Shown here: positions 1 through 21,494 of the stretch, in pieces
Position numbering within the stretch: the first letter of the stretch is position 1
How the letters are laid out: every line of letters starts with the position of its first letter
From: a virus
Length of the DNA stretch: 21,494 nt
Direction: 5' to 3' (one strand)
Virus record (IMG/VR): IMGVR_UViG_3300037557_000171
Span: 1 to 21,494 of that record
The notes under the pieces: generated by a model
Database searches by the model: none
What the model was told of the DNA's origin: nothing
The model's input: the letters and a program-made list of their open reading frames with translations, nothing else
Position numbers and translations under genes: made by a program

Positions 1-3000
1 GGATATGAAGCAGATGACGAGTTGGATGAGAGTCTTACTCCCGTCAATCATAAACCCATGACTCCCTCTGGAATCACAGTTGACGGTAACCAACTTTCAG
101 GTGGTGGCACTACTATAGTCACCAACGGTAATTCCTCTGAAAGTGGTATCATAGCAGAGGGGGATGTTCTCTATTCTTCCAATTTAGCCCTGATAGGTAC
201 AATAGCATCTGGTGGTATAGGTGCTAATATCACACTCACCGGTAATAGAGCCACCGACCTCACAGATGATGAGGAGTTGTATATTGGTGTGGGCACTAAT
301 GCCTACCCCAATACTACCCCTCAGATAATTACTGCTTCTCACACCCCATCCACAAAGCACGACTCTGTTTTTCACAAGATAGTGATAGAGCCATCTACAA
401 GCAAGAATAGTGATTTAACTGACAAGGGCGACTATGAGAGGAGAGAACCCAGTCAAGCAATAGAGTCACCTTCCAATGGTGAGTTCGATAAGGCAGGCAC
501 AGTGTCTGGTACTAACATTCATGAGATGTTTGATATTATTGATAATCAATTTAGAGATAGCAACAACACTCTAAGATTGTTCTTACAACCCTCTGATAGA
601 AGGAGAATCAATCAATTATCAACGATGCGCTCACAGATTTCAGACTTCAATGAGCCTAATTTTGTTTCTTTGATGTATCTCATGAGTAGGGCTAGAATAA
701 GAGCGGTATTGGAATCTAATAATGCTGGTGACAGTTTCACTACCGTGAAGTGTGTAGGACTCACAGAATCCACAGTTAACAGAAATGTATCCGTTAGAGG
801 AAAGGGCAGTCCAGACTCGCAGATAGTCAAGGAGATAGAGCCTAATGCACCTGTTGTCACTGTTACGCTTGGTGGGCCGGGTCAAGGTGCTATGGATACC
901 AAACCCACATACGACCCTAGTCCACTTGCTAGACTCCCATTCTCAACTAGGAGAAATCTTGCAGTCCTTGGTCATCTAGCAACATCAGGTTCAAGTGGAG
1001 GAGTGATTGTAGTCAAACCTCTCAACAACAACTCTCCTGATTTGGCTTCTTGGGGCACATACGGTTTCCCGAAAGTAGGTAGAGTGTATCTGCAAGATGG
1101 CGCAAGCGCGAAGTATGATAGCAAGGATGCATCGCAGTTCACCTTCACAGATGCTAGCGCTGGTGAGGGCAAGTTCCTACTAGGTAATGGCACTGAGTTC
1201 ACTGACTTCACCTCTTGGCTTTCAGCCACTGATATCTCAAAAGGGATTGGTGGTTTAGAAGACATTAACGTCTCAGTGACATTATTCGCTGACCGTTTCT
1301 TTGATGAGACCTCACTAGCAGAGGATGGGACCACTGTCAATGACAGAATGTTCCAAGGTATGAGTGATGTCCAGCATGACTACCAACTAGGTACTCAGTA
1401 TGCCAGCACTAGGGCACTCGTGGAGATACCCTTCTTTGCTAATCAGTTCTTTAATGACCCAAGTAGTGGAACCTTCCCCGGTCCAGACAACTCCTTCAAG
1501 ATTCACATTGACGCTACTCACACATCTCACACATACAACCCAAGTCCAGTCGGTAGGAGACCCAAAGGTGTAGAACCGGCAGACAGAGAGGCTATGTCTG
1601 CATTCTCCCTCAACAAGAAGCAGAACCAGTATGCCCCATCAACTACAATCACTAAGTTCGATACTGAAACTCTAAATTATTATGTCACAGTGGCCAATGT
1701 TAATACCTTTCCAAACCCACGTCCGGGTAATTCTGAGTTAGTTGAAACCACCACAGATAGTGACCCCTATCAGAATGTGGGTGACCACGTAAGAAATTAC
1801 AGAAAGATATTCCTATCAAATGGTGAGTGGGCTTACTATAGACAGAAAGCAGGCAATACACTCTACATTCCAAGAGACAACGGTGCAGAAAACTGGGCTT
1901 TCTCCTCTGGCTTTCTTACAGGTGCTGTAGTAGGGGCTGCTGTTTCTACTGGAGGACCCACACTCCCATTGCAAGGTATCATTCCCATAGGCTCTGATGC
2001 ATTCACACCGTCTTCGGATTTCGAGAACAGAGGGGAGTACTACCACGATGCAGCCAGTGTCAAGACACAAGGGGGCAATGTGGACTACGGGCTACGCCAG
2101 TATGTCAGTGCTGTGGAGTTCAAGGAAGGGCCTGAGTCCAACCCTCATGCCCCTAGGATAGTCGGCGGAAGAGCAGTAGGTAAGGTGAATACAGTAGCCC
2201 ATAAGAATCTAGATGGTGCGAACGGTGCATTCGTCAATCAGATTCTAATCACCATGTCAGATGAGGACATGGACCTCTTCCCTGACTTGGACTACGAGGA
2301 CATGAGCACATACTCATTCTCCTCAGGAGAGTTCCTCTATGAGGCTGAGACTATAGAGAAGTCCACTGGTAATGTGTACAAAATGCATTACTATGGTAGA
2401 CTTACCAAGAATAGTATCAGTGATACCATTGCACCGAATGTTCTGGTATTTGTTTACAGGTCCGCCTCAACATCTATGCCCCCTTGGGTTACTGAACTAC
2501 CCGGCGAGGAAATCAAATTGACTAGAAGAGTGAGGGACATTCTAGGAGCAGTTGATGGTGATGATGGTGACGGGGATGCACTTAAAGAAGTCAACAATGA
2601 AATCATAGCCAAGACATACAAACCCACTGATGATGATACTTGGACAATCACTGCATCTTCACTAATCAGTTTCAATGTGACTATTACTAACAGCAACGGT
2701 AGGTTAGCAGGCTCTAACACCCTAGGCCTGAATCTAAGGGAGGGTGACCTACTTTACTCAGAGGAGGAGGAAGTAGATGATATTGCTACTAAGATACTAT
2801 ACATAGGAAAAGTGTCCAAAATAGAGGACTACGACGATGGTACTTACACTGTAAATCTAACTTCCTTTGCTAAGAACACCGCTTCGGCAAAACCGCTCAG
2901 GCTATCCATAGCCAACGCATACGAGGAAGACTCTGACGCTGTTCTCAACAAGTCTTGGAACTACCCATACGCTGCTGGAGGTTTGAGGAGCGGTGACACG

Positions 3001-6000
3001 ATATGGGCCAACATGACAATCAACAATCCCTATGCGACAGAGGGTCTGTTCTCCAAGAGCAGAGGGGTGTTCAACGAGGCTCAGGTGTGGAAGGGATTCA
3101 ACGGCGGTGTGGCCAGCCTCGCTGCATCCAGACCTAGGGAGAGCGTGCCACTGGAGAACTTCCTCATTGGTGATACATGCCTTGAGACTGCGATAAACTA
3201 CGCACAGCATGTAAACCAGACAGTCAAGGAGAACTACAAATCTCTCGGTCTTACTGAGTCACAAGCACCCAAGGTAGCATACGTTGACCCGTATCTCGCT
3301 GAGGACGGCCATGCTAGGGTGCTTCTCTATGACGTTGCTCATGACAAGGAGTTCATTGCCTTCCAAGACCTGCACATGCAAGTTCAGACGAGCGCAGAGG
3401 CAGTCACTATCGGCAGACCTAGGAACATGGTGGTTGGTGAACCTACCGACACTGATTTAGATGGTGTTCTTGATAGTGGAATAGCACCAGTGGACTTGGC
3501 TGAGTACACAGCCACATTCAATGGTGGTGGGCCGTCATGGATTACTACACAGATTGACGTAGCCAACGGTTTCCCAAGTGAGAACAAGTACATCCGCTCG
3601 ACACAACAGTCCAAGTTCATAGAGAGTGCATACTCACATGACTTGGCTAATAGACTAGGCACTGATGTTATCACTCCAGTTAATGGCTCTCTACCGAGTA
3701 GTCTACCCACTAGCCCAGTAACATCCTCATCACCGGGAATATACGGTAAGGCACACGGTCATCACGTGCACACTGGGTACAGCATATTTGGCGCAGCAAC
3801 TGACTACTCCATGGGAGACAGTGTTTTACCAAGGACAAATGACTCCACAGTCAATCCATTCACCGCAAACAGCAACCACTCATTCTCACGAACAAAGAGG
3901 TCTTTGACTGAGGCATTCACAGCGGCACTGGTCAAACTGAGGACTGATACATCTCTTGCTACTCTTAGAGACCCATCCACATTCTTCGACACACCTGATG
4001 GGACTCGTGTCATCCCCGCATTCCTATGTCTGAAAGGTGTAAGAGACACTAACCTTGACCTCACAGGTCATGAGGAGAGTAGGTTACAACATCTCAAACA
4101 ATGGACAGACATGGATTTCTTGAGAAGATTAACGGTAGACTGCGGGGCTGTTTCTGTAAAATCAAGTGTAGTTTCCATAGAGTCAGCAGCACAGGAGATT
4201 GTGAGGCAAATCAATCAGGCAGGTGCACCTAAAGGACAAATTGTAGTTGACAAAGACACAACTGGCAGCGCTCATGACCCGGCCCCGTTTTGGGATGCAG
4301 ACAAGGCGTTCTCCTCTCGTGATAGAGGAACGCACATGGGATACGTCAGAGCACATATTGGGAGGGAAGTGCAGGACAATAATGGGAACATAGGGTTCAC
4401 CGTTGTAATACACAGCACAGTTCCCGGCGCTAGTGGTAGGAACTTCTGCGTATGGTTAGACAATAGCAAGGGTCAGGCAATCTATCAGCCTGATTTCCTC
4501 ATAGGTCATGGCGGTAGATGGCGTGACTTCTGGGCATTACCAGACGAGAAAGAAGGAGAGAACATGCACCCAGCCCCTATGCCTCTCAATAAACACGGTA
4601 GACCATTCGCACCAATTACCACCCTCACACAATACATCAACCCAGAAGAGACGGGTGAGGATGTGATTAGCGCTACAGATTTCATAGACTCAGAAAGTGA
4701 TGAAAGTCCAGTCATCAGAGCAATATCCAATGCTCTAGGAGGAGGGCAGCAATTCAACACCGTCAACACAGAATCATTCTCCACCATAGGCTCTTCTTCT
4801 ACAATCATAAGCGGGCTTAGAGTAGGCAAGAATGCTGTAGGTAGAGTCAACTTCGGTGGACTGGTAGCCAGTGGAGTACCCGGTTTCGCGCCTAATGCTG
4901 GCGTATGGGGGTATGGTAAGAAGGGTTCACAGAAGTTCAGAGACAGATACGGGGGGACTTCATCTGCTGTCTCTTACACTAACCACACAGATGCTAATGA
5001 TTTGAAAGCAGACAAATTAGGTAACACTCCCATCTATGGAATGAAGATGACCGACCATAGAGGCACACACCATGGTATTCGATACATCTACAAGTCCATG
5101 GACTCAGATTTTGCAAATGACAATACCACTCTTCCAGATACCATATCCAGTGAGGTTTGTGTGTTCTTCAATGACAGAGACGTTGGTCTTGGAGGCTTCA
5201 CACTAGGCAAGCACATGAGAGGCAGTGGAGATGCCACTGGTAGGATGGAGGAACTAGGTACTAACAACTCTAGTATGACAGCCAAGTCTTGGACTGGTAA
5301 CAGATGGAGAGGAGTGGCCGCACCAAACATAGCAGTCAACTGCACACTGAGCAGAACCACCACCACTCTCACTGTTACCTTAGCGGCACCATTCAGTAGT
5401 GCTGGTGGGCTTGCACATCACGATGTGCTAGGTTACCTAGGCTTCCCAGTTACTGACGGTATACTACAAGTGACTGATTCTCAAGGTGGTAATCAAGGAA
5501 TGACGTTCTCGTATACTAGAAGAACGCAGGAGAACAAATCAGGCACTCACAAGTTCTTTGGTATTCAAGGTAGTGAAACTTTAGGTGAATCTTCTGATAA
5601 TTATCTCATAACTCCAGTTCTTAATTGGACCACATTAGTAACTGATGAGTTGATTGCAGCAGTCACCACTGCCGCTATAAACGCAGAAAGGAAGGGAATC
5701 AACAACCCTGAGGGAATATCCTTCGATTGCACAAAGATGTATGCTACTGATGGTAAGACGTTTGGTGATTGGGGTGTTTCCTCTGATGCAATCAAGATAA
5801 GGGCATATGACCCAACCAAGAACATCAGACCACTCTCGGACTTCTTCAGGGCATCAATACACCGTGATTTTGGTATTCAGGCATCTCACATTGAGTTTGG
5901 TGAAGTAGAGAAGACTGAGTTGGCATCAACAGGTTGGGCTTTCGGTACATCAAGAGCAACCACTGATGCTCTCATAGAGGGAAATCAATCCTTCGCTTGT

Positions 6001-12000: not shown

Positions 12001-14556
12001 ATTTCACAATTAGAGAAAGGTACTAGAGATACTACTAATTTACATATACCAGATGCATATCTATGTATGTGGAATAGTAATTTAGGTAGACCATATACAT
12101 TCTACTCGGATAGTTCACGTACTTACAATAATCCAACTAGTGATAGAGCGGTTGATAAGAAACCATACAACAGCCTTCCTGAGCATTTCGAGAGTATTCA
12201 TTATCATGACTCAGTATATGCAATGAGTTTAGGACCATTGGACCTAAGAATAAAAACCGCTAACCCCGATACTAAAACTGGTGCTTCCGCCACAGGAGCG
12301 GTTGTAGAGGGATTAACTGATTATCTAGCACAGGGCGGTGATAGCCTAGATAGTCAGAAGATAATGTATAGCAAGTTCTGGCCTTGTGGTAGCCGTGGTG
12401 GGCCTTTAGTCAGTCGTTTAGACCTGTACACCGAAGCCAGCGTATCATGGACTATACCCCGTAAATACGCAGCAAATGACTTCTATTACTGGGAAGACGA
12501 TGACAGCCTACTAGATGGTAGTTACAACATGAACCTCTCTGGCATCAAGTACACTGCAATGAATAGCAGTCACGCTGATAACAGATATTCCTATGGTTGG
12601 AGAGTATCAGTTAGACAAGCGTATAACAAACCCACATACGGTATACTACCGGGTAGAGGGAAACTAGAGGATGACAACTCTACAGAGACCGGATACACCA
12701 CTGATTACGTGGCAGGACCATTGGTGCAGATGGAGTCTACTACATGGTCTTACATTGGTGGTGATGCCTCGCAGTCTAGTGCTTCTATGTCCACAACATA
12801 TGTTGGTGTCATGGAGAGGCAGACTAACTTCGCGGGTATGCTTGCTGCTGACAGACCTGAGTTCCAAGTGCGTTACAGTGATGGGAGAAGGATGACAAGA
12901 CCGTTCGGAGCACCATTGAGAACATTAGCGTCCAACACAAATCAGATTGCAGACTGGTGGGGTGACTCAAGATTTGGTAAAGCAAAATATAGCGTCACAG
13001 AGGCCGCTCAGTACTATCTGGTGGATTGGTGGGGTAACGAGCGTGGAGAGGACGTAAGGCGTGCTCCAGTGCGTGGATTCGGCATCAGACCAGCATGGGA
13101 CTGTGGTGATGTATACGAGTATGACAGAACCAACGGAAGAACTCCCCACGCTAGGATATTCAATAACGGTAAGCCCATCTTCGATGTTCTTGGTGTCATA
13201 AACTCCTCAGGGGCAAGAACCGGCGACCCACCGAGATTATGTGGTACTCAATCACTGAGTGGTAGTAGCACTGTCCTAGTTGATGTATTCGCACCCACAC
13301 ACTCAATGCGTGTGGGAGACATGGGTAACGGTAGAGGGGTCAGATACCCAAGCCAATTCAACGAGGACATACTCACAGAACTTTCAGAACCAATACATTC
13401 CACTGGTATAGTGTTAAGCCACAACACAGCAGAACCACCAGCCGTAACGGGCTTGTTACGCCCCCGTAACGATGTACTGCAAGCCGATGAGATTCCTAGG
13501 GGAATCAGTGCTAGATTGGAGATTGCAGAGGATGGCCTCCTCAAACCAGACGCGGTAGTTAGTGACCGAGTGGAGAGTGTGGTAGGTTCTAGCCCACATA
13601 AGGACGCAATCAGCAGAAGCACACCGAGGATAGGGGTAGACGCTGAGAACATGGAGGGACTTGAGAAGGACCACATAGTAATCAATACGGAGGCACACAG
13701 CCTACACACTGATAGAGGGGTAGGGCAGAGGACTGTGCTTCATGGTGCTTTAGTAGCCAATTCTCAATCCATTGGTGACTTGGACCTGACATCTACTAAC
13801 TTCAATAGTAACATGAACAACATACTCAGATTCAGCCACACTAACAACGTCAACCCTCTTGGTGGTAGTTATGTGTTAGAGACCAAGAGTTACGGTGCTT
13901 TCTTTGATGATACAGGTTGGGGGCTGGATGGTGTGTCTGGTGCAGCATTCACAACAAATCCATATCAAAATACCGATTTCAATAGAAATACCATGATGAA
14001 CAATCAAAACGACCAGAGCATACAGTGGTTGTTACGCCCCGTCCGTGTCCTAGACAAACAACATGTAGAGATGTTCAGACCACTATCTGCTGTGGGTGGT
14101 AGCACAGCACAACCGGGTTCAAACTTCTTCAGAGCAACTGCTGGTGGAAAGTATGGTTTGTTCACATACAATGTAGCAACACCAAGAGTTGCGACTGATA
14201 ACTTCCCAAGGTCAACAGCATCTGATACCAACGGACCATACGTGCCTGTGTTTTACATGTCCGCATCCAGTTCTGTCACTCCTACATCCCAAGGTCCTAA
14301 GATTCTAGGAACAGAATCCACAGGTTTCGACAAGACTAGCATCACTAGCCCAGTGACGAGAATGGTGATGAGTGAGAATACCCTTCAACACTACAGAGCA
14401 GATGCTGCTAGAAGGAGACAGATGGAAGAATCAAATGAGTTAGTTAGGAGAATAGACTTCAGCATAAAACCTAGATTCAGCCAGTCTCTACACCCTAAGG
14501 GACACAAGGGTGATGTGACTTTCAACGTCAGTAACCACAGTGGTGATGCTTCATGA
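1..14556 (+). CDS. Giant virion structural protein, probably tail tip/baseplate-associated (5' partial)
   Basis: The frame is open from the first base to the TGA at 14554-14556, giving at least 4,851 residues (over 500 kDa). A TTG at 22 is the first possible start, but it has no ribosome binding site and the frame continues upstream as an acidic stretch (GYEADDELDE), so the start is outside the window. I recognise no whole-protein family. The composition (Gly, Ser, Thr, Asn, Asp and aromatics, few cysteines, little coiled coil) points to a beta-rich secreted or virion protein and not a helical tape measure. Visible pieces are GDVLY/GDLLY-type segments at 160-174 and 2743-2757, a calcium-loop motif at 3448-3474, His-rich segments near 7459-7581 and 10621-10710, an ITVDDASRFP phage-type module from 11716, and a basic, probably helical tail near 14380-14500 (HYRADAARRRQ). 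Its place before a hub-like gene and two fibres suggests a tail-tip or baseplate role; this is inference. Confidence 0.8.
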   Translation, partial: GYEADDELDESLTPVNHKPMTPSGITVDGNQLSGGGTTIVTNGNSSESGIIAEGDVLYSSNLALIGTIASGGIGANITLTGNRATDLTDDEELYIGVGTNAYPNTTPQIITASHTPSTKHDSVFHKIVIEPSTSKNSDLTDKGDYERREPSQAIESPSNGEFDKAGTVSGTNIHEMFDIIDNQFRDSNNTLRLFLQPSDRRRINQLSTMRSQISDFNEPNFVSLMYLMSRARIRAVLESNNAGDSFTTVKCVGLTESTVNRNVSVRGKGSPDSQIVKEIEPNAPVVTVTLGGPGQGAMDTKPTYDPSPLARLPFSTRRNLAVLGHLATSGSSGGVIVVKPLNNNSPDLASWGTYGFPKVGRVYLQDGASAKYDSKDASQFTFTDASAGEGKFLLGNGTEFTDFTSWLSATDISKGIGGLEDINVSVTLFADRFFDETSLAEDGTTVNDRMFQGMSDVQHDYQLGTQYASTRALVEIPFFANQFFNDPSSGTFPGPDNSFKIHIDATHTSHTYNPSPVGRRPKGVEPADREAMSAFSLNKKQNQYAPSTTITKFDTETLNYYVTVANVNTFPNPRPGNSELVETTTDSDPYQNVGDHVRNYRKIFLSNGEWAYYRQKAGNTLYIPRDNGAENWAFSSGFLTGAVVGAAVSTGGPTLPLQGIIPIGSDAFTPSSDFENRGEYYHDAASVKTQGGNVDYGLRQYVSAVEFKEGPESNPHAPRIVGGRAVGKVNTVAHKNLDGANGAFVNQILITMSDEDMDLFPDLDYEDMSTYSFSSGEFLYEAETIEKSTGNVYKMHYYGRLTKNSISDTIAPNVLVFVYRSASTSMPPWVTELPGEEIKLTRRVRDILGAVDGDDGDGDALKEVNNEIIAKTYKPTDDDTWTITASSLISFNVTITNSNGRLAGSNTLGLNLREGDLLYSEEEEVDDIATKILYIGKVSKIEDYDDGTYTVNLTSFAKNTASAKPLRLSIANAYEEDSDAVLNKSWNYPYAAGGLRSGDTIWANMTINNPYATEGLFSKSRGVFNEAQVWKGFNGGVASLAASRPRESVPLENFLIGDTCLETAINYAQHVNQTVKENYKSLGLTESQAPKVAYVDPYLAEDGHARVLLYDVAHDKEFIAFQDLHMQVQTSAEAVTIGRPRNMVVGEPTDTDLDGVLDSGIAPVDLAEYTATFNGGGPSWITTQIDVANGFPSENKYIRSTQQSKFIESAYSHDLANRLGTDVITPVNGSLPSSLPTSPVTSSSPGIYGKAHGHHVHTGYSIFGAATDYSMGDSVLPRTNDSTVNPFTANSNHSFSRTKRSLTEAFTAALVKLRTDTSLATLRDPSTFFDTPDGTRVIPAFLCLKGVRDTNLDLTGHEESRLQHLKQWTDMDFLRRLTVDCGAVSVKSSVVSIESAAQEIVRQINQAGAPKGQIVVDKDTTGSAHDPAPFWDADKAFSSRDRGTHMGYVRAHIGREVQDNNGNIGFTVVIHSTVPGASGRNFCVWLDNSKGQAIYQPDFLIGHGGRWRDFWALPDEKEGENMHPAPMPLNKHGRPFAPITTLTQYINPEETGEDVISATDFIDSESDESPVIRAISNALGGGQQFNTVNTESFSTIGSSSTIISGLRVGKNAVGRVNFGGLVASGVPGFAPNAGVWGYGKKGSQKFRDRYGGTSSAVSYTNHTDANDLKADKLGNTPIYGMKMTDHRGTHHGIRYIYKSMDSDFANDNTTLPDTISSEVCVFFNDRDVGLGGFTLGKHMRGSGDATGRMEELGTNNSSMTAKSWTGNRWRGVAAPNIAVNCTLSRTTTTLTVTLAAPFSSAGGLAHHDVLGYLGFPVTDGILQVTDSQGGNQGMTFSYTRRTQENKSGTHKFFGIQGSETLGESSDNYLITPVLNWTTLVTDELIAAVTTAAINAERKGINNPEGISFDCTKMYATDGKTFGDWGVSSDAIKIRAYDPTKNIRPLSDFFRASIHRDFGIQASHIEFGEVEKTELASTGWAFGTSRATTDALIEGNQSFACGYIPNTVMQISTKSRGPNSNTATPVLVDSLNNLVDTSDWRRNLKGESFTRHSGDHILPMINNPNAVYDPTGGSSAADWAIGGSDHLTLQHEMWNFLIPAGQEGASSRIPSFGETKTIFMNDKKSVAVESVNGGTSTTKLAWSNPSEDWPATEVADVLAFSHWAKLDITKDFDGLRSLGSVFSEPFVFFRGGKSSADHSVPLFFGGGFSGVTLDINDGTKNDYSSFYTHPYANGPTGTTGIQNANEISTSFALLDGNAMFAFFPGAALCNQHRGSILPPMFNKDNILSPDLTKTGTTINSGHPYSTPYTNNSGTNITVQKPSPLILRFAHPTARYEDHRDGTDSKTTYLIFGPGQAFPFTQEVADGGSAYNTEQPHPGRVIVNGNGWSKVPLATATQRFPNHIESEGILADGTFGTGYFMPEASAYQLVRGRFHWRATYNWEPPQGKPNAAILKQTPSSGRMYGNHFNYRTATSGIDNDILKAHPMRHCPVIGHGVAMAADMVYHMDGGYHPGGHWMDNQITFNPPHPKSDTILQRWGSGSADTVLHPSAYRVAGPITTKVLAYAASEGDLVAADVDMEYIIVDATRCQNGEELSAVLGSAINSFPGAGALKAMGGTHNPSMSNAMRQDRYGWIESTYSAIVNSSTDPDDNHITVTMSGGTQDSLEQIPACGWLRTAASGFAPYYAREVHNDGAWKVKFYLAPNRISGQMKFEDKTTWYDTSGAKDTFPTVNSGSIWIWSKAGVHRFNNDNSPERDHMCQTHFSGLVDAIDRTRPIGAVGWAGERYSYLNSLKVGTEGYAAGLGAWHPMLGFSPYGSASSAMTALGHLPVVAPMTHSPESLPPVDGMGASAANLMTYLGDPYSNSTGFRVNSDSQAAYNIGHQVFVAPYTIHTKPPIYIDTTLPDFMTHPQGVFGRAFLVVSYECESALVAKYDRDVITGLGDWLQVKGAAANSVANPIHYAGTTEWDERFHGQDRFIAPANAGPNVEAMVHITPTVPSFSDYTTNHVLDGSPFNAAYFFHGSAASNTNLENAIPSLHKTGDLILDLDHSVGSFFLEETGVERNVADDFYTGEDFTQLYDDGGGTPSHDDFWVGDVNAFDLYKRAPAKNFSVEHVVWKRMDGGNLSLPAINARGLGAVPFVNRVSGGTAYTMGEKIYGNVRFSFETTNGAMLPVLQAQELSHPQLASKFPKEISNVLDIPNEELQFEEMVVIDDSGQQHILEGGSPLGTIIRGFRKVNDRETKGMAPSLANSGVAPNLKIQLPDPNTIPGNIVIRSGFDRVQAYQNETMGSGGMIHPDLNENYIGSLFDNSVSSPRTGPTYEDHNWEHIDTLTKESTNSGWKESTNSAPLQTSYEQHDRTLYFHVTKMGHSGTERYPTEYTHSGGVVNQSLTVSGFSGTTLTVSGTVDASIYDAGFGTKEVSDNRRFLRLATTTDSVVVSYTAISGVTFTGVIGDVDFTAFLEANPPASTTINITPSYYIPAGSNRFFASRRLRDHAEVSGNSPDMAKTEYATGTYGTIDTNTLAHNIYNKQVLTPMPLPRMGHHFVTPTMPMLPGHWAHPVYQGLFRKHMAENASLRGFADKNILTDSVTATMDKAELTALESGAVVDQFNVHDPELAFSGVNAAPSGPSDIHGGAFTLMFETSIKYDGYGILASTGAAGTVNQQGGHSILLESAANYTLGKHFPDPAEVGAYQIVIQPNTFSTQLVGYHSDVLASTLSLTSQQVNTVIGKKVSHSTLGTVSLTLAQATQADVRGCEIFINEAMLDINPDHGSQFTNIPPLLLYNPFGVEGTESPVFTRRALPYTPGQFRNATPGYTVSTPWWSFLHKVAPDDDSSDNFKHIAHHRPDNYYHIKRSTFGSIGVQLTIAGYPSIYPNIYSHVLQNTSLNPKCIVKSIQSAAGGYRTITVDDASRFPETPQYGEVLEYTDSNGIRRTLDYTRRAGLQLNAINKPDKLQSSTLSGPFWDNLTVETTIRLSQPYDIYSSKNVLTDNNSSIFAKVISQLEKGTRDTTNLHIPDAYLCMWNSNLGRPYTFYSDSSRTYNNPTSDRAVDKKPYNSLPEHFESIHYHDSVYAMSLGPLDLRIKTANPDTKTGASATGAVVEGLTDYLAQGGDSLDSQKIMYSKFWPCGSRGGPLVSRLDLYTEASVSWTIPRKYAANDFYYWEDDDSLLDGSYNMNLSGIKYTAMNSSHADNRYSYGWRVSVRQAYNKPTYGILPGRGKLEDDNSTETGYTTDYVAGPLVQMESTTWSYIGGDASQSSASMSTTYVGVMERQTNFAGMLAADRPEFQVRYSDGRRMTRPFGAPLRTLASNTNQIADWWGDSRFGKAKYSVTEAAQYYLVDWWGNERGEDVRRAPVRGFGIRPAWDCGDVYEYDRTNGRTPHARIFNNGKPIFDVLGVINSSGARTGDPPRLCGTQSLSGSSTVLVDVFAPTHSMRVGDMGNGRGVRYPSQFNEDILTELSEPIHSTGIVLSHNTAEPPAVTGLLRPRNDVLQADEIPRGISARLEIAEDGLLKPDAVVSDRVESVVGSSPHKDAISRSTPRIGVDAENMEGLEKDHIVINTEAHSLHTDRGVGQRTVLHGALVANSQSIGDLDLTSTNFNSNMNNILRFSHTNNVNPLGGSYVLETKSYGAFFDDTGWGLDGVSGAAFTTNPYQNTDFNRNTMMNNQNDQSIQWLLRPVRVLDKQHVEMFRPLSAVGGSTAQPGSNFFRATAGGKYGLFTYNVATPRVATDNFPRSTASDTNGPYVPVFYMSASSSVTPTSQGPKILGTESTGFDKTSITSPVTRMVMSENTLQHYRADAARRRQMEESNELVRRIDFSIKPRFSQSLHPKGHKGDVTFNVSNHSGDAS
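9997..10044 (+). repeat. 24-base tandem repeat in the giant gene
   Basis: AAGGAAAGCACCAAC occurs at 9997-10011 and again at 10021-10035, giving KESTNSGW then KESTNSAP. It is an in-frame eight-residue duplication, probably by slippage or short-range recombination, in a Ser/Thr-rich surface-like stretch. Confidence 0.75.
10864..10913. repeat. Strong GC-rich hairpin inside the giant coding region
   Basis: The left arm 10864-10878 (GTAAACGCGGCCCCC) pairs with the right arm 10900-10913 (GGGGGCGCGTTTAC): 14 base pairs with one bulged G and a 21-base loop. It is read through in frame (VNAAPSGP..GGAFT). No T-run follows, so it is not a standard terminator. Confidence 0.7.
11550..12170 (+). other. 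Low-GC island within the giant gene
   Basis: By hand count, 11581-12060 has 162 G+C in 480 bases (about 34%), with single lines as low as 27%. Sampled lines elsewhere in the same gene give 53% (5281-5340) and 45% (8941-9000). The frame stays open. The island includes the ITVDDASRFP module and a Tyr/Asn-rich stretch (YPSIYPNIYSHVLQ). It may be a domain acquired from another virus. Confidence 0.65.
13443..13471. repeat. Three-arm short inverted repeat (cgtaac / gttacg / cgtaac)
   Basis: CGTAAC at 13443-13448, GTTACG at 13455-13460 and CGTAAC at 13465-13470 can form two mutually exclusive six-base hairpins, with GGGC/GCCC pairing also possible between 13449-13452 and 13460-13463. It lies in frame in the giant gene (VTGLLRPRND) and may be chance. 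Confidence 0.4.
14542..14547 (+). promoter_or_regulatory. Ribosome binding site for the hub-like gene (inside giant gene)
   Basis: GGTGAT lies five bases before the ATG at 14553 and pairs with the 3' end of 16S rRNA (..ATCACC..). It sits in the last codons of the giant gene, so initiation should follow termination at the overlapping ATGA. Confidence 0.65.
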
Positions 14557-15989
14557 CCAATCTAAAGGCAAGTGGTGGTAAGTTCAATAACACCGTCAAT
14601 GAAATCATGCAGCATATCAGAAAACCTGTGTTTGTGGACAATGCTGTACACCATGCACTTCTCTCATCACAGTCTGATAACAAACACAAGGTGACTATAG
14701 AGAATAGAAACAATGCTACCTACAATGTGTTCAGCGAGAAGAGGTACGAGTTGGTTGAAGGGGAAGCGGCTGTACAACTCACTCATGTAAGTGTACCGGG
14801 CCATTCAAGCAAAGCAGCACCATTCTACGAAAGTAGTGTTATTTCTTCATCTTCCACTTTACCTACTCTGATGTATAGCGGGGAGAACACTAGTGAGAGG
14901 CTTACTCTTTCAACAGCGGAAACTTCCACTGAGGGAGTTAAAATCAACATGAAGAATATGAAGGGGAGAAGTCTGAAGGATATAGGTTTCAGAGGTAGTA
15001 CTGTACATCTTGGAGACCCTATTGATGTTGGCTTAAGAACTAGCGACTTGGCTATGAGGTTAGGTTCAGATGTAACATCTACTCTTACATCAGTGCAGAT
15101 AGGCTCATTGAGACACTCTGCGAATACTAACGAAGGTAGGAGAAAACACACCAACAAGTTCCTTGCAGAGGACTTCTTCGGTATTCCCCTCATATCAGCA
15201 CTCAAGTTCACATCACGTCATGATGGAAATATCATCTACTTCGATAGATTTGCTAATCTGATGTACACACCATTCAGATTCTCATCATCAAATAGATTCC
15301 TAGATGCTACCATCAGACAAGGCAACGAGGAAACCAACCCATCATCTCACAACGAAAATAGAATCTCAATCAAAGGGGTTCCCTTAGCACTTAATGAGAA
15401 TGCTTCTGTGGTGGTTGATGATGCAGAGAGACAACAAGGTAAGTTCGATACAGACATACAAGAGACAACAACCCCTATCTTTGATGCTACAGTTAAGACC
15501 AATGCAGCAGCCAAGAGGGTTGCAAGACAGATTCTGAAAGCCAACTCCCTACAACAAGGCTCTCTGAGAAGTAGTGGACACCCCGACTCTTGGGACTTAA
15601 GACCCGGTAAGGTAGTATCCTATCAAGGAGAGAAGAGACTCATCATTGAATCTAGACACACATTATCTTCTAGACTAACAGACATGAACTTCGTCTCCAT
15701 ACAAAAAGGAATTGAAGGTGTGTTACAGGGAATCAGTAAGGGGATGGTTTCAGCATCAGCGGGTGATAATCCAGACATCATAAGTCAGAAGACTGAAAAG
15801 AATCTCTCTCTGTTTTCTTCATTAGAAATTAGAGTAATTCCCATTATAACAGTCAGAGTTGTCGAAAGCCTCAATTCTAAGTTTGCAATCGGTAAGGCTG
15901 CTGGGAGGGCTACGATAGGCAAGGCTAACACACAAAAGGTGATTGGAATGTCCAAGTTTAGCGAAGTCAGTATGAGAGGTGGTGAGTAA
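14553..15989 (+). CDS. Putative baseplate/tail hub-like protein, 478 aa
   Basis: Starts with ATG inside the ATGA overlap with the giant gene, with GGTGAT five bases upstream, so translation is probably coupled. The N-terminal half (to about residue 220) is not recognisable. The C-terminal half has a layout I associate with gpD/gp27/VgrG-type hub proteins: NRISIKGVPL, then an Ala-rich helix-like stretch (NAAAKRVARQILKANS), then the DLRPGKVVSYQG turn, then a strand pattern ending in RLIIESRHTLSSRLTDMNF. In that family these form the ring at the tail end around the spike. The last 50 residues carry short IGKA repeats. Order (giant protein, hub-like, small protein, fibres) agrees with a baseplate gene cluster. 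Arginine is AGA/AGG in 28 of 29 cases. The hub assignment is pattern-based and could be wrong; that it is a real virion-module gene is much safer. Confidence 0.55.
   Translation: MTNLKASGGKFNNTVNEIMQHIRKPVFVDNAVHHALLSSQSDNKHKVTIENRNNATYNVFSEKRYELVEGEAAVQLTHVSVPGHSSKAAPFYESSVISSSSTLPTLMYSGENTSERLTLSTAETSTEGVKINMKNMKGRSLKDIGFRGSTVHLGDPIDVGLRTSDLAMRLGSDVTSTLTSVQIGSLRHSANTNEGRRKHTNKFLAEDFFGIPLISALKFTSRHDGNIIYFDRFANLMYTPFRFSSSNRFLDATIRQGNEETNPSSHNENRISIKGVPLALNENASVVVDDAERQQGKFDTDIQETTTPIFDATVKTNAAAKRVARQILKANSLQQGSLRSSGHPDSWDLRPGKVVSYQGEKRLIIESRHTLSSRLTDMNFVSIQKGIEGVLQGISKGMVSASAGDNPDIISQKTEKNLSLFSSLEIRVIPIITVRVVESLNSKFAIGKAAGRATIGKANTQKVIGMSKFSEVSMRGGE
15976..15985 (+). promoter_or_regulatory. 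Ribosome binding site for the 114-aa gene
   Basis: GAGGTGGTGA offers two alternative matches to anti-Shine-Dalgarno, GAGGTG seven bases and GGTGA three bases before the ATG at 15989. It overlaps the end of the hub-like gene, which closes with TAATG. Confidence 0.65.
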
Positions 15990-16333
15990 TGCCTGCGAGT
16001 GATTACATCAAGAGAGTTATGTTGGATACTATAGCATCTAACATCAACGAAATGATAATTGGTTTTGATGGAACACCAGCCACGCCCTCTGATGGTGCTG
16101 CTGGTAGACCAGCGGTCACAATTACACCCACTGTGACTGTGATAGATGACTCGACTTTGATGGTCGAAGGGACCTTAGGAACCGAACACTCTTTCTCTGA
16201 ACCACTAAAGGAGGTCTTCATACAGTCAAGGGGCACCAGTGATTTCGTTCCAGTCTCAAGACATGTAATAAGCCCCATAACAAAGACAAGTGGTAACGAG
16301 ATGAAGATTCAACTATTGATAGAGGTGAGATAA
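15989..16333 (+). CDS. Small tail/baseplate-like protein of unknown function, 114 aa
   Basis: ATG overlaps the TAA of the preceding gene (TAATG), with GAGGTGGTGA just upstream. The N-terminus (SDYIKRVMLDTIASNINEM) looks helical; then comes a low-complexity, Pro/Ala/Gly-rich linker (GTPATPSDGAAGRPA, about residues 28-42) and a beta-rich C-terminal half. The segment LKEVFIQSRGTSDFVPVSRH followed by ISPITKTSGNEMKIQLLIEV resembles the pattern 'E-hydrophobic-hydrophobic, short loop, R, hydrophobic-x-P-hydrophobic-x-K, E-hydrophobic' found in N-terminal domains of several phage tail-fibre and collar proteins. That likeness is from memory and is only a hint of an adaptor or attachment role. No cysteine, signal peptide or membrane segment is present. 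Coupling on both sides shows it is made with the hub-like protein and the first fibre. Confidence 0.6.
   Translation: MPASDYIKRVMLDTIASNINEMIIGFDGTPATPSDGAAGRPAVTITPTVTVIDDSTLMVEGTLGTEHSFSEPLKEVFIQSRGTSDFVPVSRHVISPITKTSGNEMKIQLLIEVR
16322..16328 (+). promoter_or_regulatory. Ribosome binding site for fibre 1
   Basis: GAGGTGA, a seven-base match to the 16S complement, four bases before the ATG at 16333. It lies in the final codons of the 114-residue gene and supports coupled translation through TAATG. Confidence 0.7.
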
Positions 16334-19152
16334 TGGCGACAACAGGCAATCCACTTTCAGGACACACTTCTGCTAATTACAACTCTGCTCATTCAGCGGG
16401 TTCAGGGGCAGCGGTAGATGGTCTTAGAGATGGTGACCAGATACTATCAGCGTCATTCACTAACATCCTAGAGGGCATACATGGTAATGGTATACTCATG
16501 CTAGAGGGTGGTGCAGTAAGTGGCACTAATAGAAACAACCCCGACTTCCTTCCGGGCGCTGTTACCAAAGGGGTATCTAGTCATCAGGTAAAGATTCAAG
16601 GAGGCTATGTTGTATTAGACAGTTCCATGTATGCCTTTGCAGATGGATACGATACCGATGGAACTCCAGATGACATATCCATAAATCTCACAGGAAACAG
16701 CATTCACAAGACAGGCACAACAAGTGCATTAACCACAGGCAAGGAATGTCTGTTTACTATCTTCGTGAACGCCAATGACTCTAGTAGCACCAAACATATT
16801 AGATTCCAACAAAGCAGTCTAGTGGATACAGGCACAGGAGTTTATCCCTCTTCTCCTAATTCATTCCTCATAGACGATGGAACCAGCACATCAGTCAAGG
16901 AGACAGTGATTTTAGCCACAGTTAGAGCGATATTCAATGGTTCAGCGTCTGGTGATAATACTGGCACCCATGGTTTGGCACTCACAATAACAGAAATAAA
17001 TGACAAGAGAGTATTCCTCAAACCGTCACCAATGTTCATCACCCCTCTAACCAAAGGTGTTCCGAAGAACAAGGATACAGCGAACTCAGTCAACAGTCAC
17101 AGCGACCTAGATGCATTCCAAAGCGAGGCTGGTGACTTTGCCTCTTCACCATTCGGTGCTGTATGGATGTCCCATTCCACAGACAAGGTCACCGCAGGAG
17201 GCACTAGATTAGGTGATGTGGGCGACGATGTGTTGTTCTTCGCATCGCATGAATCAGATGGTTCTCCTAAGACCCTGAGACTAGCACCTGATAGAATAAA
17301 CACAGGGACACCTACTGGTGTCAACCACTTTACCCATGATGGTCCCAATATCTTCATCGTTGCGCCGGGTGGTGCTGGATGTTCCTTGAACCCAGACAAC
17401 ACTAGCAATGAGTTTGCGCCCGGCTCTATTGTCTATATCAGGAATACAAACGCAACAAGTGGTCACCCAATCAACTTCGATACCATTGGGGCAAGTGCTA
17501 TGGATTACCAGATTACAGGTGGTCAAAGCGCAATCATCATCCGTAACAACAGTAGTAGTAACCCAAAGTGGTCTGTACTCATCAACGCTTCATCCAGTGG
17601 GACAGGAGCAGTGTCTGCCTTGAATGGTGCAACTGAAAATGAACTTGTCACTATTGGGTCCACTACAACTGAACTAGATGCGGAAGCCCTACTGAAGTTC
17701 GATGGCGCTACTCTTGAAGTAGGGGCTTCTGGTAATGGTGCTGATTTACTACTACACTCTGCTACTGCTGCTCATGTCGGTCTAAAATGGGACCACGATG
17801 ACCAGACTGACGGCTCTCTAACTCTAGGGGCTGACAACCATGGTATAGATTTCAAGGCATACGGAGAGACTGCTGGCCAGTTCATTCACTGGGATGCTTC
17901 CGCTGATACACTCTTTGTCACGTCTACATTGGATATAGACGGTGCAGTAAACGTGGGTGTGGATGGGACTGGTTACGATGTGAAGTTCTTCGGTGATACT
18001 GCTGGGGCATACGTGATGTGGGACCAGAGTCAGGACGACCTCATCCTTGGTGGTGCTGCTAGACTCGGTATAGGAGACACAGCACCCGGTACACAATTAC
18101 AGATATCCGCAGACGGTCCTACAATCACACTCAAGAACAGCGTTGCTGAGAATGGAGAGGGTGGTGCTGAGAGCAATATCCTATTCGAGGACCACGCAGA
18201 TGCTTCCTTAGCGAGTATACAGGGTAGTCACCACGGAACTGCTGATGATACCAAGGGTAAACTCATCATGAGCACGCACAATGGTACATCACTCACCACT
18301 GCTGTGACGATAGACTCAGCACAGAAGACCACTCTCGCTGGTGAGGTGGTGATTGGTGGTGACCTCACAGTCAACGGGACCACTACGACAATCAACAGCA
18401 CCACCATGACCACAGACAACATAATCCTCACTCTAGGAGGAGACACCCCTCCCGGCAGCAATGACTCCAAGGACAAGGGCATAGAGTTCAGGTATTATGA
18501 CTCTCAAGCCAGAATAGGGTTCTTCGGATATGACGAGGATGCCGCTAACTTCACCTTCCTCACAGCGGCCACCAATACTAGTAACGTGTTCAGTGGTACA
18601 AAGGGCACAATCAATGCCAACCTCTCAGGTAATTTATCTGGGGGCACAATCAATGCCACTACCATAACTGGTACTGCTGATTTGATTATCAACACCAATG
18701 ACTTCGTGGTGGATACAGATACCACCAACCCTGCTAAGGTAGGAATCAATCAAGCAAGCCCGATAGCATCACTACAGATAGCCACGACTGGTTTGGAGAG
18801 TCAAACTATTGACTCTGGTAGCACCTCCAGCAACGCTGTCGTCACTCTATGCACTAGAACTCAATTCAGGTCATTGAAGGTGTTTGTATCAAGCAAGGCC
18901 GATGATGACACAGCATTTGAGGCTACTGAGATTCTAGTAACACATAACGGCGCTTCGGGTGGCACTGTGGCATCCACAACATACGGTACAGTCACAATAG
19001 GTGGAGGAGCAGGAGGCTCCCCTGCCGCAATAGCAGCATATGCTGTTGCTTTAAGTGGTGATAATTTACAACTCACAATCAATTACAATCAAGTAAACGG
19101 GTCAGACAAAGATTTTACTACAAACATCCACTGGATAGGACTGGCGATATAG
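16333..19152 (+). CDS. Modular tail fibre protein 1, 939 aa
   Basis: ATG overlaps the preceding TAA (TAATG) with a strong GAGGTGA site four bases before it. Residues 1-250 form a distinct N-terminal part (HQVKIQGGYVVLDSSMYAFA) that probably docks on the virion. Residues 330-420 look like a beta-sandwich (HFTHDGPNIFIVAPGG, GSIVYIRNT). From 430 on there are modules familiar from marine phage fibres: ENELVTIGSTTTELDAEALL (435-454), three 'WD' units with tryptophans at 486, 520 and 563, a GGDLTVNGTTTTINS module at about 675-690 known from T4-like cyanophage fibres, and a C-terminal domain at 821-939 (TQFRSLKVFVSSK, EATEILVTHNG) of a type that often ends such fibres. Expected role: receptor binding on the host envelope. 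The module calls are from recall; the fibre call itself is firm. It ends in TAG, 12 bases before fibre 2. Confidence 0.85.
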   Translation: MATTGNPLSGHTSANYNSAHSAGSGAAVDGLRDGDQILSASFTNILEGIHGNGILMLEGGAVSGTNRNNPDFLPGAVTKGVSSHQVKIQGGYVVLDSSMYAFADGYDTDGTPDDISINLTGNSIHKTGTTSALTTGKECLFTIFVNANDSSSTKHIRFQQSSLVDTGTGVYPSSPNSFLIDDGTSTSVKETVILATVRAIFNGSASGDNTGTHGLALTITEINDKRVFLKPSPMFITPLTKGVPKNKDTANSVNSHSDLDAFQSEAGDFASSPFGAVWMSHSTDKVTAGGTRLGDVGDDVLFFASHESDGSPKTLRLAPDRINTGTPTGVNHFTHDGPNIFIVAPGGAGCSLNPDNTSNEFAPGSIVYIRNTNATSGHPINFDTIGASAMDYQITGGQSAIIIRNNSSSNPKWSVLINASSSGTGAVSALNGATENELVTIGSTTTELDAEALLKFDGATLEVGASGNGADLLLHSATAAHVGLKWDHDDQTDGSLTLGADNHGIDFKAYGETAGQFIHWDASADTLFVTSTLDIDGAVNVGVDGTGYDVKFFGDTAGAYVMWDQSQDDLILGGAARLGIGDTAPGTQLQISADGPTITLKNSVAENGEGGAESNILFEDHADASLASIQGSHHGTADDTKGKLIMSTHNGTSLTTAVTIDSAQKTTLAGEVVIGGDLTVNGTTTTINSTTMTTDNIILTLGGDTPPGSNDSKDKGIEFRYYDSQARIGFFGYDEDAANFTFLTAATNTSNVFSGTKGTINANLSGNLSGGTINATTITGTADLIINTNDFVVDTDTTNPAKVGINQASPIASLQIATTGLESQTIDSGSTSSNAVVTLCTRTQFRSLKVFVSSKADDDTAFEATEILVTHNGASGGTVASTTYGTVTIGGGAGGSPAAIAAYAVALSGDNLQLTINYNQVNGSDKDFTTNIHWIGLAI
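17767..18048 (+). repeat. Three diverged 'WD' modules in fibre 1
   Basis: Three related units follow each other: residues 479-499 (AAHVGLKWDHDD..), 504-529 (GIDFKAYGETAGQFIHWDAS..LFV) and 547-572 (GYDVKFFGDTAGAYVMWDQS..LIL). The last two align over 26 residues at 43-residue spacing, sharing the FxxxGxTAGxxxxWDxSxDxL pattern. They are diverged, so the duplication is old or the modules were acquired separately. Confidence 0.7.
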
Positions 19153-19153
19153 G

Positions 19154-19160
19154 GGGGTGA
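19154..19160 (+). promoter_or_regulatory. Ribosome binding site that decides the start of fibre 2
   Basis: GGGGTGA within the only intergenic gap of the window (19153-19164). It is four bases from the ATG at 19165 and touches the out-of-frame ATG at 19161, so spacing favours 19165. Confidence 0.7.
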
Positions 19161-19164
19161 ATGA

Positions 19165-21494
19165 ATGGCAGAGAAGGATTTTCGTGTAAGGAAAGGATTA
19201 GTGGTTGATGGGACCGCAGCGGCAACCAGCGTTGCTGTCACCACAGGGAACGTGGTACTGACTGCTGGAACACTCGGTCTCACTGATGGTATTCTACTAA
19301 GCACAGTGAGTGGTACCCCTAATGTATCACTAATATCCTCACAACCCACTGATGGTAACATCAAGATTGCACCTAACGGTGCTGGTGACATCGTATTCGA
19401 CACAGACAACCTCGATGTCAGTGCTGACTCAATGAAAATCAGCATCAAGGACAATGTCACTGCTTCACTCGACATAACAGAGGCAGGTAACTCCTATCTC
19501 AAGTTCACGACCACAGACGGGGGCAGTGAAGCAGCATCAGGGTTGATTACCTTTGGTAAGGCCAGCACTTTCGCTGGAACTACTATCGCTAACTTAGGGA
19601 CCGTTACGACTGCCACATCAATCACCTCTACTGCATTTGTAGGAGCATTAGACGGTGAAGTGGGTGGAACCACACCTGCTGCTGGTACGTTTACCTCTAT
19701 TAGTGTGGGTGATGGAGACATCACCAATGTTGGAGACATCAATACAGATAGTATCAGTGTTGATGCTGCCGCTACTGGTCTCAATGTGGATTTCAGTGCT
19801 GCTAACACTGGTACTGGAGTGATTACTCTCAGAGATGCTATGGCAGACGCTCTCAGTATAACAGACGGAACAAACGACTGGATGGTGTTCAATACTGATG
19901 GAGAAACACTTACCTTCGGTAGAAACTCTACCTTCGCTGGAACTACCATAGCCAGCCTAGGTACTGTATCTGCTGCAACCTCAATCACTTCTACTGCATT
20001 TGTAGGTCCAATAGACGGTATAGTAGGTGGAAACACACCTGCCGCTGGTTCGTTTACCACCCTCGGTGCATCCAGCACCAGCGCTCTAGTAGGCGCAGTC
20101 ACGATAGGCGATGCAAGCACTCACGGAAACATCACTAGTGCTGCTGGGAAGTACATCACCATAGCACCGGGAGATGCCACTGGCACTGATACGAATGGAG
20201 GTCGCACTACCATACAGGGCGGAGCAGGGACAGGTGAAGGTGATGGAGGGTACGTCACATTCGAGTTAGCACCACCCGGAGCGGGTACTGGTGCTGGTTC
20301 TAACCCCCATGTGACTGCCTTTACATTGAATGCACTAGTGAATGGCGCTAACCCCACTGCTGTATTCACTGGCGTGACTACAGCACCTACATTCGCCACA
20401 TCCAATACGACTACCGGCATAACAGTCAGTGGTTCGACTATATCTACCGATGGCTCTCAAACCAACATACATCTCACACTCGACCCACAAGGGACTGGGG
20501 AGATAGACGCTCAAGCAGCCTTGGACATGAACGACCTCAACATCAAACATGTCGATACGATGTACGTGCTCAACGTAGATGCAAATCAAGTAGGTGCGGG
20601 AACTACTGATGTGATAAACATCGGTAGAACCGATAACGTCACAATCGGTGGAACTGCGCTGGCTGACAACAACATCGCATTGCAGGTCAATGGTGGTGCT
20701 AACGCAGCCTTGCACGCCAACACAGGGGCAGGAAGTGCTGGCGGTGATGCTGACTACACCGAGGTTCGACTTCACATAGGGGTCACTGAGACAGAGATGT
20801 CTGACCTTACCCATCCTAAGGAATTAGTTGCCCTCGTCTTACAGAACAGCAACTCAGGCACTAACAACTCTGCGGGCGCTAAGGGTATAATCTTCGATGT
20901 GCCTACTGGTACTCCCGGTACTAATTCTGACGGGTCTACTTGGGGTATTGGGACCACTCAAGACGACATGAAGAGGTTCGTCATAGGGTTCGCAGGTACT
21001 AAACAAGGTTGGGATAACTCGACCAAGGGTACTACCAACTCGCCTTTGAACGACACGAGAGCAGCAGACTCACAACCGCTCTACGTCATGGATGAGGGCG
21101 GTAATCACTACGTGCAAATCGGCACGCATATCGGTAGTGCTGCTACCGCTGGTACGTTCAATTTCATAGAGGGCAATTCCCATGCCACCGCACCCAAGAC
21201 CAAGATTCAGATAACCGGCGAGGGTGCAATCAGATTCTACGAGACTGGTGACTCAGAAAACGCCTACATAGCGATTCAAGCACCAGCAAACCTAACTGGA
21301 ACAACCACCAACTACACGCTCACTCTACCAGTGGATGATGGGGCGAGTGGAGAAGTCCTTCAGACCGATGGTAGCGGTGTTCTGAGTTGGTCTGCTGCGG
21401 CCTCTGGTGGTATAGCCCTCACTGACTTGTCTGTCGGGGCAGAGGCAACCGCTGCTGGTGATGGAGGGATATCATATGCCAGCGGTACTGGTGT
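19165..21494 (+). CDS. Modular tail fibre protein 2, at least 776 aa (3' partial)
   Basis: Starts at the second of two nearby ATGs; the ATG at 19161 is out of frame and meets a stop within 16 codons, while the one at 19165 follows GGGGTGA by four bases and opens a frame with no stop to the window edge (776 codons plus two bases). The N-terminus MAEKDFRVRKGLVVDG matches the 'DFxVxxGLxV' opening common in marine phage fibres. Residues 130-179 and 251-300 are two copies of one 50-residue module (STFAGTTIA..LGTV, TSITSTAFVG, PAAG.FT). Residues about 717-742 hold the TLTLPVDDGASGEVLQTDG...LSW motif, and about 750-770 the LSVGAEATAAGDGGISY motif, both widespread in marine phage fibres. The protein is Gly/Thr/Ala/Ser-rich, acidic and has no cysteine that I see. 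Role: probable host-binding fibre or fibre tip; the receptor-binding end is outside the window. Confidence 0.85.
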   Translation, partial: MAEKDFRVRKGLVVDGTAAATSVAVTTGNVVLTAGTLGLTDGILLSTVSGTPNVSLISSQPTDGNIKIAPNGAGDIVFDTDNLDVSADSMKISIKDNVTASLDITEAGNSYLKFTTTDGGSEAASGLITFGKASTFAGTTIANLGTVTTATSITSTAFVGALDGEVGGTTPAAGTFTSISVGDGDITNVGDINTDSISVDAAATGLNVDFSAANTGTGVITLRDAMADALSITDGTNDWMVFNTDGETLTFGRNSTFAGTTIASLGTVSAATSITSTAFVGPIDGIVGGNTPAAGSFTTLGASSTSALVGAVTIGDASTHGNITSAAGKYITIAPGDATGTDTNGGRTTIQGGAGTGEGDGGYVTFELAPPGAGTGAGSNPHVTAFTLNALVNGANPTAVFTGVTTAPTFATSNTTTGITVSGSTISTDGSQTNIHLTLDPQGTGEIDAQAALDMNDLNIKHVDTMYVLNVDANQVGAGTTDVINIGRTDNVTIGGTALADNNIALQVNGGANAALHANTGAGSAGGDADYTEVRLHIGVTETEMSDLTHPKELVALVLQNSNSGTNNSAGAKGIIFDVPTGTPGTNSDGSTWGIGTTQDDMKRFVIGFAGTKQGWDNSTKGTTNSPLNDTRAADSQPLYVMDEGGNHYVQIGTHIGSAATAGTFNFIEGNSHATAPKTKIQITGEGAIRFYETGDSENAYIAIQAPANLTGTTTNYTLTLPVDDGASGEVLQTDGSGVLSWSAAASGGIALTDLSVGAEATAAGDGGISYASGTG
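19552..19701 (+). repeat. 50-residue module, copy A, in fibre 2
   Basis: Residues 130-179, from FGKASTFAGTT to PAAGTFTSI. It aligns without gaps to copy B exactly 121 codons downstream. A 26-base block at 19618-19643 differs from copy B at one base only. Confidence 0.85.
19915..20064 (+). repeat. 50-residue module, copy B, in fibre 2
   Basis: Residues 251-300, from FGRNSTFAGTT to PAAGSFTTL. The match core is 19981-20006. Upstream similarity continues weakly (TASLDIT / ADALSIT; SYLKFTTTDG / DWMVFNTDG), so the full duplicated unit is about 120 residues. Confidence 0.85.

Follow-up and report, generated by a model that had tools for sequence, protein, structure and literature searches.

Which short words are missing from this viral DNA, and what has removed them? 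The window, that is, the whole stretch of DNA that was analysed, is a complete viral record of 21,494 nt. It is best explained as a fragment of a magrovirus, a tailed virus of lytic type, whose hosts are Poseidoniales (Marine Group II), abundant marine archaea; we consider this reading, together with the escape from host restriction proposed below, likely to be right. The window holds giant, hub-like and fibre genes only (Table 1), and the marker genes of magroviruses are found on a 73-kb relative, G003. We found no family match for the giant gene in Pfam or PHROG. Its counterpart in G003 is likewise giant.

Words missing from the window

The first-pass annotation had claimed that CCWGG is absent and that codon choice avoids it in all Pro-Gly pairs. 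The counts bear this out. Neither CCAGG nor CCTGG occurs in the 21,494 nt (0 and 0), against 48 CCWGG sites expected from a first-order and 27 from a maximal-order Markov model. In 1,000 shuffles of synonymous codons within genes the expectation was 35.8 ± 4.4 sites, with a minimum of 22. All 28 Pro-Gly pairs of the five genes (18 + 2 + 0 + 5 + 3) use CCC or CCG; about 74% of the window prolines outside Pro-Gly are CCA or CCT, and both Pro-Trp pairs are written CCT-TGG, as the annotation had said. The three codon frames, with expectations of 18.6, 5.2 and 12.3 sites, hold 0 each. The purge thus reaches beyond Pro-Gly, since the other codon frames (17 sites expected) are also empty.

Table 1. 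Genes of the window and two example codon pairs
Feature	Position	Strand	Details
Giant gene	1..14556	+	4,851 aa, 5' end open; 18 Pro-Gly pairs, all CCC/CCG
478-aa gene ("hub-like" in the first-pass annotation)	14553..15989	+	2 Pro-Gly pairs: 14796 CCGGGC, 15603 CCCGGT
114-aa gene	15989..16333	+	zero Pro-Gly pairs
Fibre/structural protein, 939 aa	16333..19152	+	PHROG 697 structural protein, E 1.2e-40; 5 Pro-Gly pairs
Fibre-like gene	19165..21494	+	3' end open, 776 aa to 21492; 3 Pro-Gly pairs
Example Pro-Gly pair CCG-GGC	14796..14801	+	CCSGG kept, CCWGG avoided
Example Pro-Gly pair CCC-GGA	20275..20280	+	proline written CCC

Two points of the earlier reading had to be changed. CCSGG was said to stand at about its expected level, but it lies above it (31 sites against 18.3, a count reached by about 1 in 1,000 shuffles), because the codon choice in Pro-Gly is forced into CCS. 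Furthermore, the CCWGG signal is real, but GATC and AGCT had been missed although they are purged even more strongly, with 0 sites against 62 and 86 expected, respectively, from the synonymous-codon shuffles. Further zeros are RAATTY (23 expected), GRCGYC (11), GRGCYC (11), CTGCAG (10) and CYCGRG (9). All eight zero sites fall below every one of the 1,000 shuffles, and GANTC, a control, is normal (98 against 89 expected).

We also ran an automatic motif search that removes overlapping words. For the window it returned eight standard palindromes and one weak extra, and for G003 18 entries, corresponding to at least 14 separate specificities. Applied to 73 kb of host chromosome and to three simulated sequences, the same search listed zero motifs. 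Each of the purged words is a classic palindromic Type II site. With at least eight specificities purged in the window, we rejected CCWGG as the sole or main signal.

The proposed "EcoRII/Dcm-type" label holds as a specificity (CCWGG is the target, CCSGG is not) but is unproven as an enzyme. Likewise, selection against CCWGG as a Type II site is supported, whereas a single EcoRII/Dcm-like enzyme is not, because CCWGG is only one of at least eight purged specificities.

The purge across magroviruses

Longer viral contigs with the same three-site purge carry copies of the window's 478-aa protein that are 84-85% identical to it (85% in G003). G003 encodes a family-B DNA polymerase (PolB), a PD-(D/E)XK nuclease, an ERCC4 nuclease and a group II chaperonin, as well as HK97-type capsid, portal and terminase proteins. 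It thereby has both PolB with the archaeal accessory replication module and the HK97-type head module that define membership, and its gene content is that of magroviruses, viruses of Poseidoniales archaea. G003 also carries an HMG-CoA lyase-like gene (L007:14670-15521; PF00682, E 1.8e-18), a possible auxiliary metabolic gene. The nearest named relatives of the capsid are the Druskaviridae haloviruses HVTV-1 and HCTV-1 (major capsid protein 33-34% identical), in agreement with the published relationship. We based the assignment to Poseidoniales hosts on gene content, on published magrovirus assignments and on one magrovirus-like contig in a Poseidoniales assembly. Among 293 Poseidoniales genomes there was one magrovirus-like terminase (45% identity); its contig, 106 kb long, may be a free virus that was binned together with the host.

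With the terminase and the polymerase as queries we obtained more than 150 magrovirus loci, and removal of near-identical ones left 79 loci with 1.57 Mb. CCWGG occurs 0 times against 2,481 expected in all 79, GATC 0 times against 6,454 once one tolerant cluster is set aside, and AGCT 0 times against 5,315 once the tolerant viruses are. At the 95% level CCWGG is thus depleted at least 800-fold, and GATC and AGCT about 2,000-fold. The control words CATG (8,085 seen, 8,098 expected), GANTC (6,380 and 6,535) and CCSGG (1,657 and 1,122) are not depleted, and TGCA is near normal. All 1,265 Pro-Gly pairs avoid CCWGG, none having CCA or CCT.

Could such a pattern follow from composition or codon bias, for instance from a general dislike of palindromes or of Pro-Gly with CCA or CCT? 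Some palindromes, such as TTAA, are indeed moderately low. However, synonymous-codon shuffles never hit zero, CCA and CCT are still usual in the relatives before other G-starting codons (4,068 of 5,523), CATG, GANTC and TGCA stay near normal, and one site returns together with one methyltransferase, as described below. Since the GC content of magroviruses spans 34 to 57%, composition is not the cause, and we give this explanation practically no credence. The hosts were compared as well, as equal avoidance of CCA/CCT-GGN in host genes would have spoken against restriction. Poseidoniales genes do not avoid it: 457 of 650 Pro-Gly pairs have CCA or CCT, and 193 avoid CCWGG. Host DNA keeps the sites, with observed to expected ratios of 0.58 for GATC and 0.63 for AGCT (both mildly reduced) and 0.85 for CCWGG.

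Loss by mutation alone, with methylated cytosines in CCWGG and AGCT deaminating to thymine, has in its favour that C5 methyltransferases are present in both virus and host. The products of deamination are not enriched, though (CCTAG 0.81 and AACT 1.01 of expected), and GATC is equally absent although m6A is no mutagen. Together with exact zeros over 1.57 Mb, a depletion of at least 800-fold, this makes mutational loss extremely improbable.

While the three core sites (GATC, AGCT and CCWGG) are constant across nearly all magroviruses, the outer set varies. Besides the words missing from the window, it includes GGNNCC, ACTAGT and others in relatives, and CTAG or GTAC is missing in other lineages. 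GGNNCC is absent from G003 (0 against about 215 expected) and present in the window (33 against 62), despite the 85% identity of the protein compared. Such differences between close relatives argue against the idea that the cutters are site-specific nucleases of the virus itself, directed at host DNA and harmless to a viral genome that has none of their sites. Magroviruses do encode PD-(D/E)XK, ERCC4-type and HNH nucleases (in part from the ICTV text), the host genome retains the sites, and matching host restriction genes look rare. On the other hand, the at least 14 specificities of G003 would demand about as many nucleases, and the scan of G003 proteins showed no member of a restriction-enzyme family. 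We regard viral cutters as a very improbable cause.

Outside this set, a methyltransferase query gave 61 other viral contigs, of which only three lack all three core sites; two of these are one archaeal type with a TFB-like gene. We observed tandem C5 methyltransferase genes on L322:1-20825 and L324, which lie outside the magrovirus set and are without GATC, AGCT and CCWGG. L322 also carries the archaeal TFB-like gene, and L321/L322 lack GTAC and CTAG too. Possibly, L322 and L324 belong to another virus family of the same hosts.

Methyltransferases and the return of sites

Next, we asked what distinguishes the viruses that tolerate a core site. Among 49 viral records searched, a C5 methyltransferase was found only in G010 and G011, where AGCT is tolerated (82 against 95 and 94 against 94 expected). 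Of the 30 contigs that reach 50 kb, the C5 carriers are the only two that tolerate AGCT, a match with a chance probability of 1 in 435. When the AGCT-tolerant group was set against the others in an unbiased contrast of 2,456 motifs, the top ten were all AGCT words, which amounted to 254 against 287 expected in the former and 19 against 6,066 in the latter. A search for this gene then placed it in five magrovirus contigs of two divergent lineages. All five are AGCT-tolerant, the three newly found carriers having 65 against 92, 65 against 87 and 90 against 96 expected sites, and in all five GATC and CCWGG remain at 0.

The C5 gene (L193:1501-2280) shows 92-94% identity across the lineages, and together with its two neighbours 89-97%, against 45-66% for the replication genes; the cassette has thus moved horizontally. 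The genes that flank it, one for the chaperonin and one of 97 aa, adjoin in G003. The target-recognition region of the viral enzyme closely matches that of the C5 methyltransferase of four Poseidoniales genomes. We infer that the viral enzyme is specific for AGCT; if so, AGCT would be a site at which selection has relaxed where methylation protects the viral DNA.

For GATC there is a single case, and the evidence is thinner than for AGCT. The magrovirus-like contig G306:C2 from a Poseidoniales assembly has 55 GATC sites against 173 expected, AGCT 0, CCWGG 0 and a D12 methyltransferase, the statistics coming from its readable part, as most of the first 72 kb reads as N. This is suggestive of a GATC return with the D12 enzyme, which has no homologues in the other viral loci. 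No methyltransferase was found on the GATC-tolerant fragments G007-G009, about 45 kb of the genome lying outside them, and the host Dam-type enzyme has no close viral homologue. In a further virus, G013 (L057, L291, L292), AGCT is partly back (25 against 129), and no methyltransferase was seen on its 31-kb fragment; possibly this virus has only shortly gained protection or changed its host. As leads only, we mention three methyltransferase-bearing viruses that tolerate words avoided by the others: G050 (D12 enzyme; GRGCYC), G031 (N6/N4 enzyme; GAATTC) and G030 (TTCGAA or TCCNGGA).

Self-methylation as a virus-wide norm was tried as a candidate and rejected: 43 of the 49 virus records carry no N6/N4, D12 or C5 methyltransferase.

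The purge is broad, is specific when compared with the control words and is not seen in host DNA, and AGCT tolerance goes together with one viral C5 methyltransferase. From this we propose that the viruses probably escape host Type II restriction by eliminating the sites, with methylation as an alternative route. The agents of the purge would be the Type II restriction endonucleases of the hosts that a lineage meets, which would select against their recognition sites. Purifying selection over a long time, acting where synonymous or otherwise tolerated changes are possible, would then lead to the loss of every site of the set, and DNA without a site could not be cut. The set would consist of a core of GATC, AGCT and CCWGG in nearly all magroviruses and an outer part, in the window RAATTY, GRGCYC, CYCGRG, GRCGYC and CTGCAG. 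Where some relatives gain a methyltransferase, the matching site would no longer be selected against and could return.

Host genomes and known systems

If host restriction enzymes are the agents, they should be visible in Poseidoniales. Methyltransferases are patchy there (C5 in 11, N6/N4 in 24 and D12 in 6 of 50 genomes), the families covered by the host searches being these three and MvaI/BcnI. An MvaI/BcnI-family endonuclease gene adjoins an N6/N4 methyltransferase in G105 and G206, and a LlaMI-family gene adjoins a C5 enzyme in G059; such MvaI/BcnI and LlaMI-family genes with adjacent methyltransferases, the candidates for the CCWGG specificity in these putative hosts, occur in 3 of 293 Poseidoniales genomes. 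The MvaI/BcnI family as such is found in 3 of the 293, the AGCT-type methyltransferase in 4 and strong Dam-type matches (about 200 bits or more) in 4. Eco47II-, TdeIII- and BglII-family genes are also present in Poseidoniales. A Dam-type methyltransferase adjoins a DUF6996/DUF6997 gene (L246:628-1404, L247:638-1402) with a PD-(D/E)XK-like E-x-D...E-x-K stretch. Judging from this stretch and its neighbour, the protein, from a family without assigned function, is a candidate GATC-specific endonuclease. The putative host endonucleases had no match among solved structures.

In summary, genes that match each core site are seen in only about 1-2% of the 293 host genomes, and this rarity fits poorly with an absolute absence of the sites across the order. 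Potentially, the host searches fall short, as they would overlook enzymes that evolve fast and genomic islands that are binned badly. Alternatively, since recognisable restriction-modification genes for the core sites are so rare, the three core sites might be targeted by a near-universal, unrecognised DNA-targeting defence of Poseidoniales, or by virus-encoded cutters; we consider this unlikely.

The sites could also be avoided as marks: solitary host methyltransferases would mark GATC, AGCT and CCWGG, and a Type IV nuclease or a regulator would act on the methylated viral DNA. Solitary GATC and AGCT methyltransferases do persist in Methanomicrobiales and Nitrososphaerota (PMC10609329), and Mrr cutting of methylated GATC has been proposed for haloviruses (PMC7230728). 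In Poseidoniales, a conserved N6/N4 methyltransferase gene (L226:1255-2208 and homologues) is common to about 20 of 50 genomes, beside the gene for phosphoglycerate kinase and with no evident restriction partner. However, a virus that methylates its own AGCT should then be worse off, whereas AGCT comes back precisely where the viral C5 methyltransferase is present, and the long outer list of six-base specificities resembles Type II restriction rather than a handful of regulatory marks. Avoidance of marks therefore seems rather improbable to us. The conserved N6/N4 methyltransferase is perhaps the CGCG enzyme of MGIIA; CGCG stands at 221 against 746 in the G054 sample. Published methylomes list CGCG, GGTAG and TCGCGA methylation for MGIIA archaea and CGCG, CYCGRG, GATC and CCWGG methylation for marine tailed viruses (PMC9516812), which does not settle core-site methylation in Poseidoniales.

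Escape from host restriction, our preferred reading, points to restriction enzymes as a dominant defence of these uncultured hosts. The purge pattern would show which words a virus cannot carry and survive, and would thereby predict the restriction specificities and methylomes of the hosts: GATC, AGCT and CCWGG in nearly all of them, and besides these an outer set that shifts from lineage to lineage. The natural experiments, in which one methyltransferase is gained and one site restored, would make methyltransferase specificities assignable from sequence alone. The puzzle they pose together is that of a universal purge and enzymes that look rare.

Site elimination itself is a known strategy; here it is order-wide and multi-specific. 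Rusinov et al. (2018) define elimination as a compositional bias below 0.1 and find it mostly for orthodox Type II palindromic sites, more typically in non-temperate phages and in 7.5% of phage-site pairs (PMC6286503). In magroviruses CCWGG, GATC and AGCT are at zero, with CCSGG, CATG and GANTC not depleted, and in contrast to that survey nearly every locus eliminates the same three sites, and many loci several more.

We found no report of site avoidance in Magrovirales, in a search that reached only part of the literature. The published members of the order (Apasviridae, Aoguangviridae and others) resemble the viruses described here in PolB, primase, PD-(D/E)XK and ERCC4 nucleases, HK97-type head genes and thermosome, in being marine and in having no reported integrase. 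The Druskaviridae HVTV-1 and HCTV-1 share the absence of GATC (0 against 254 and 0 against 266 expected) and of CTGCAG (0 against 7), but their AGCT (80 against 102 and 121 against 120) and CCWGG (82 against 65 and 82 against 53) are normal, and they avoid CTAG instead.

A close parallel is that of the HF1-group haloviruses (HF1, HF2, HRTV-7 and others), also archaeal tailed viruses that lack several palindromes at once. CTAG and GATC are totally absent from them, AGCT is absent in HRTV-7, GGWCC in most, and 21 six-base palindromes are missing, which has been explained by diverse host defences (PMC7230728). Unlike magroviruses, these are a handful of related isolates with halophile hosts, and CCWGG was not noted. 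As far as we have searched the literature, the order-wide three-site core, the broad outer set and the reversal that goes with a methyltransferase are new: magroviruses share a core of GATC, AGCT and CCWGG over an uncultivated order of divergent viruses, with exceptions that are linked to methyltransferases.
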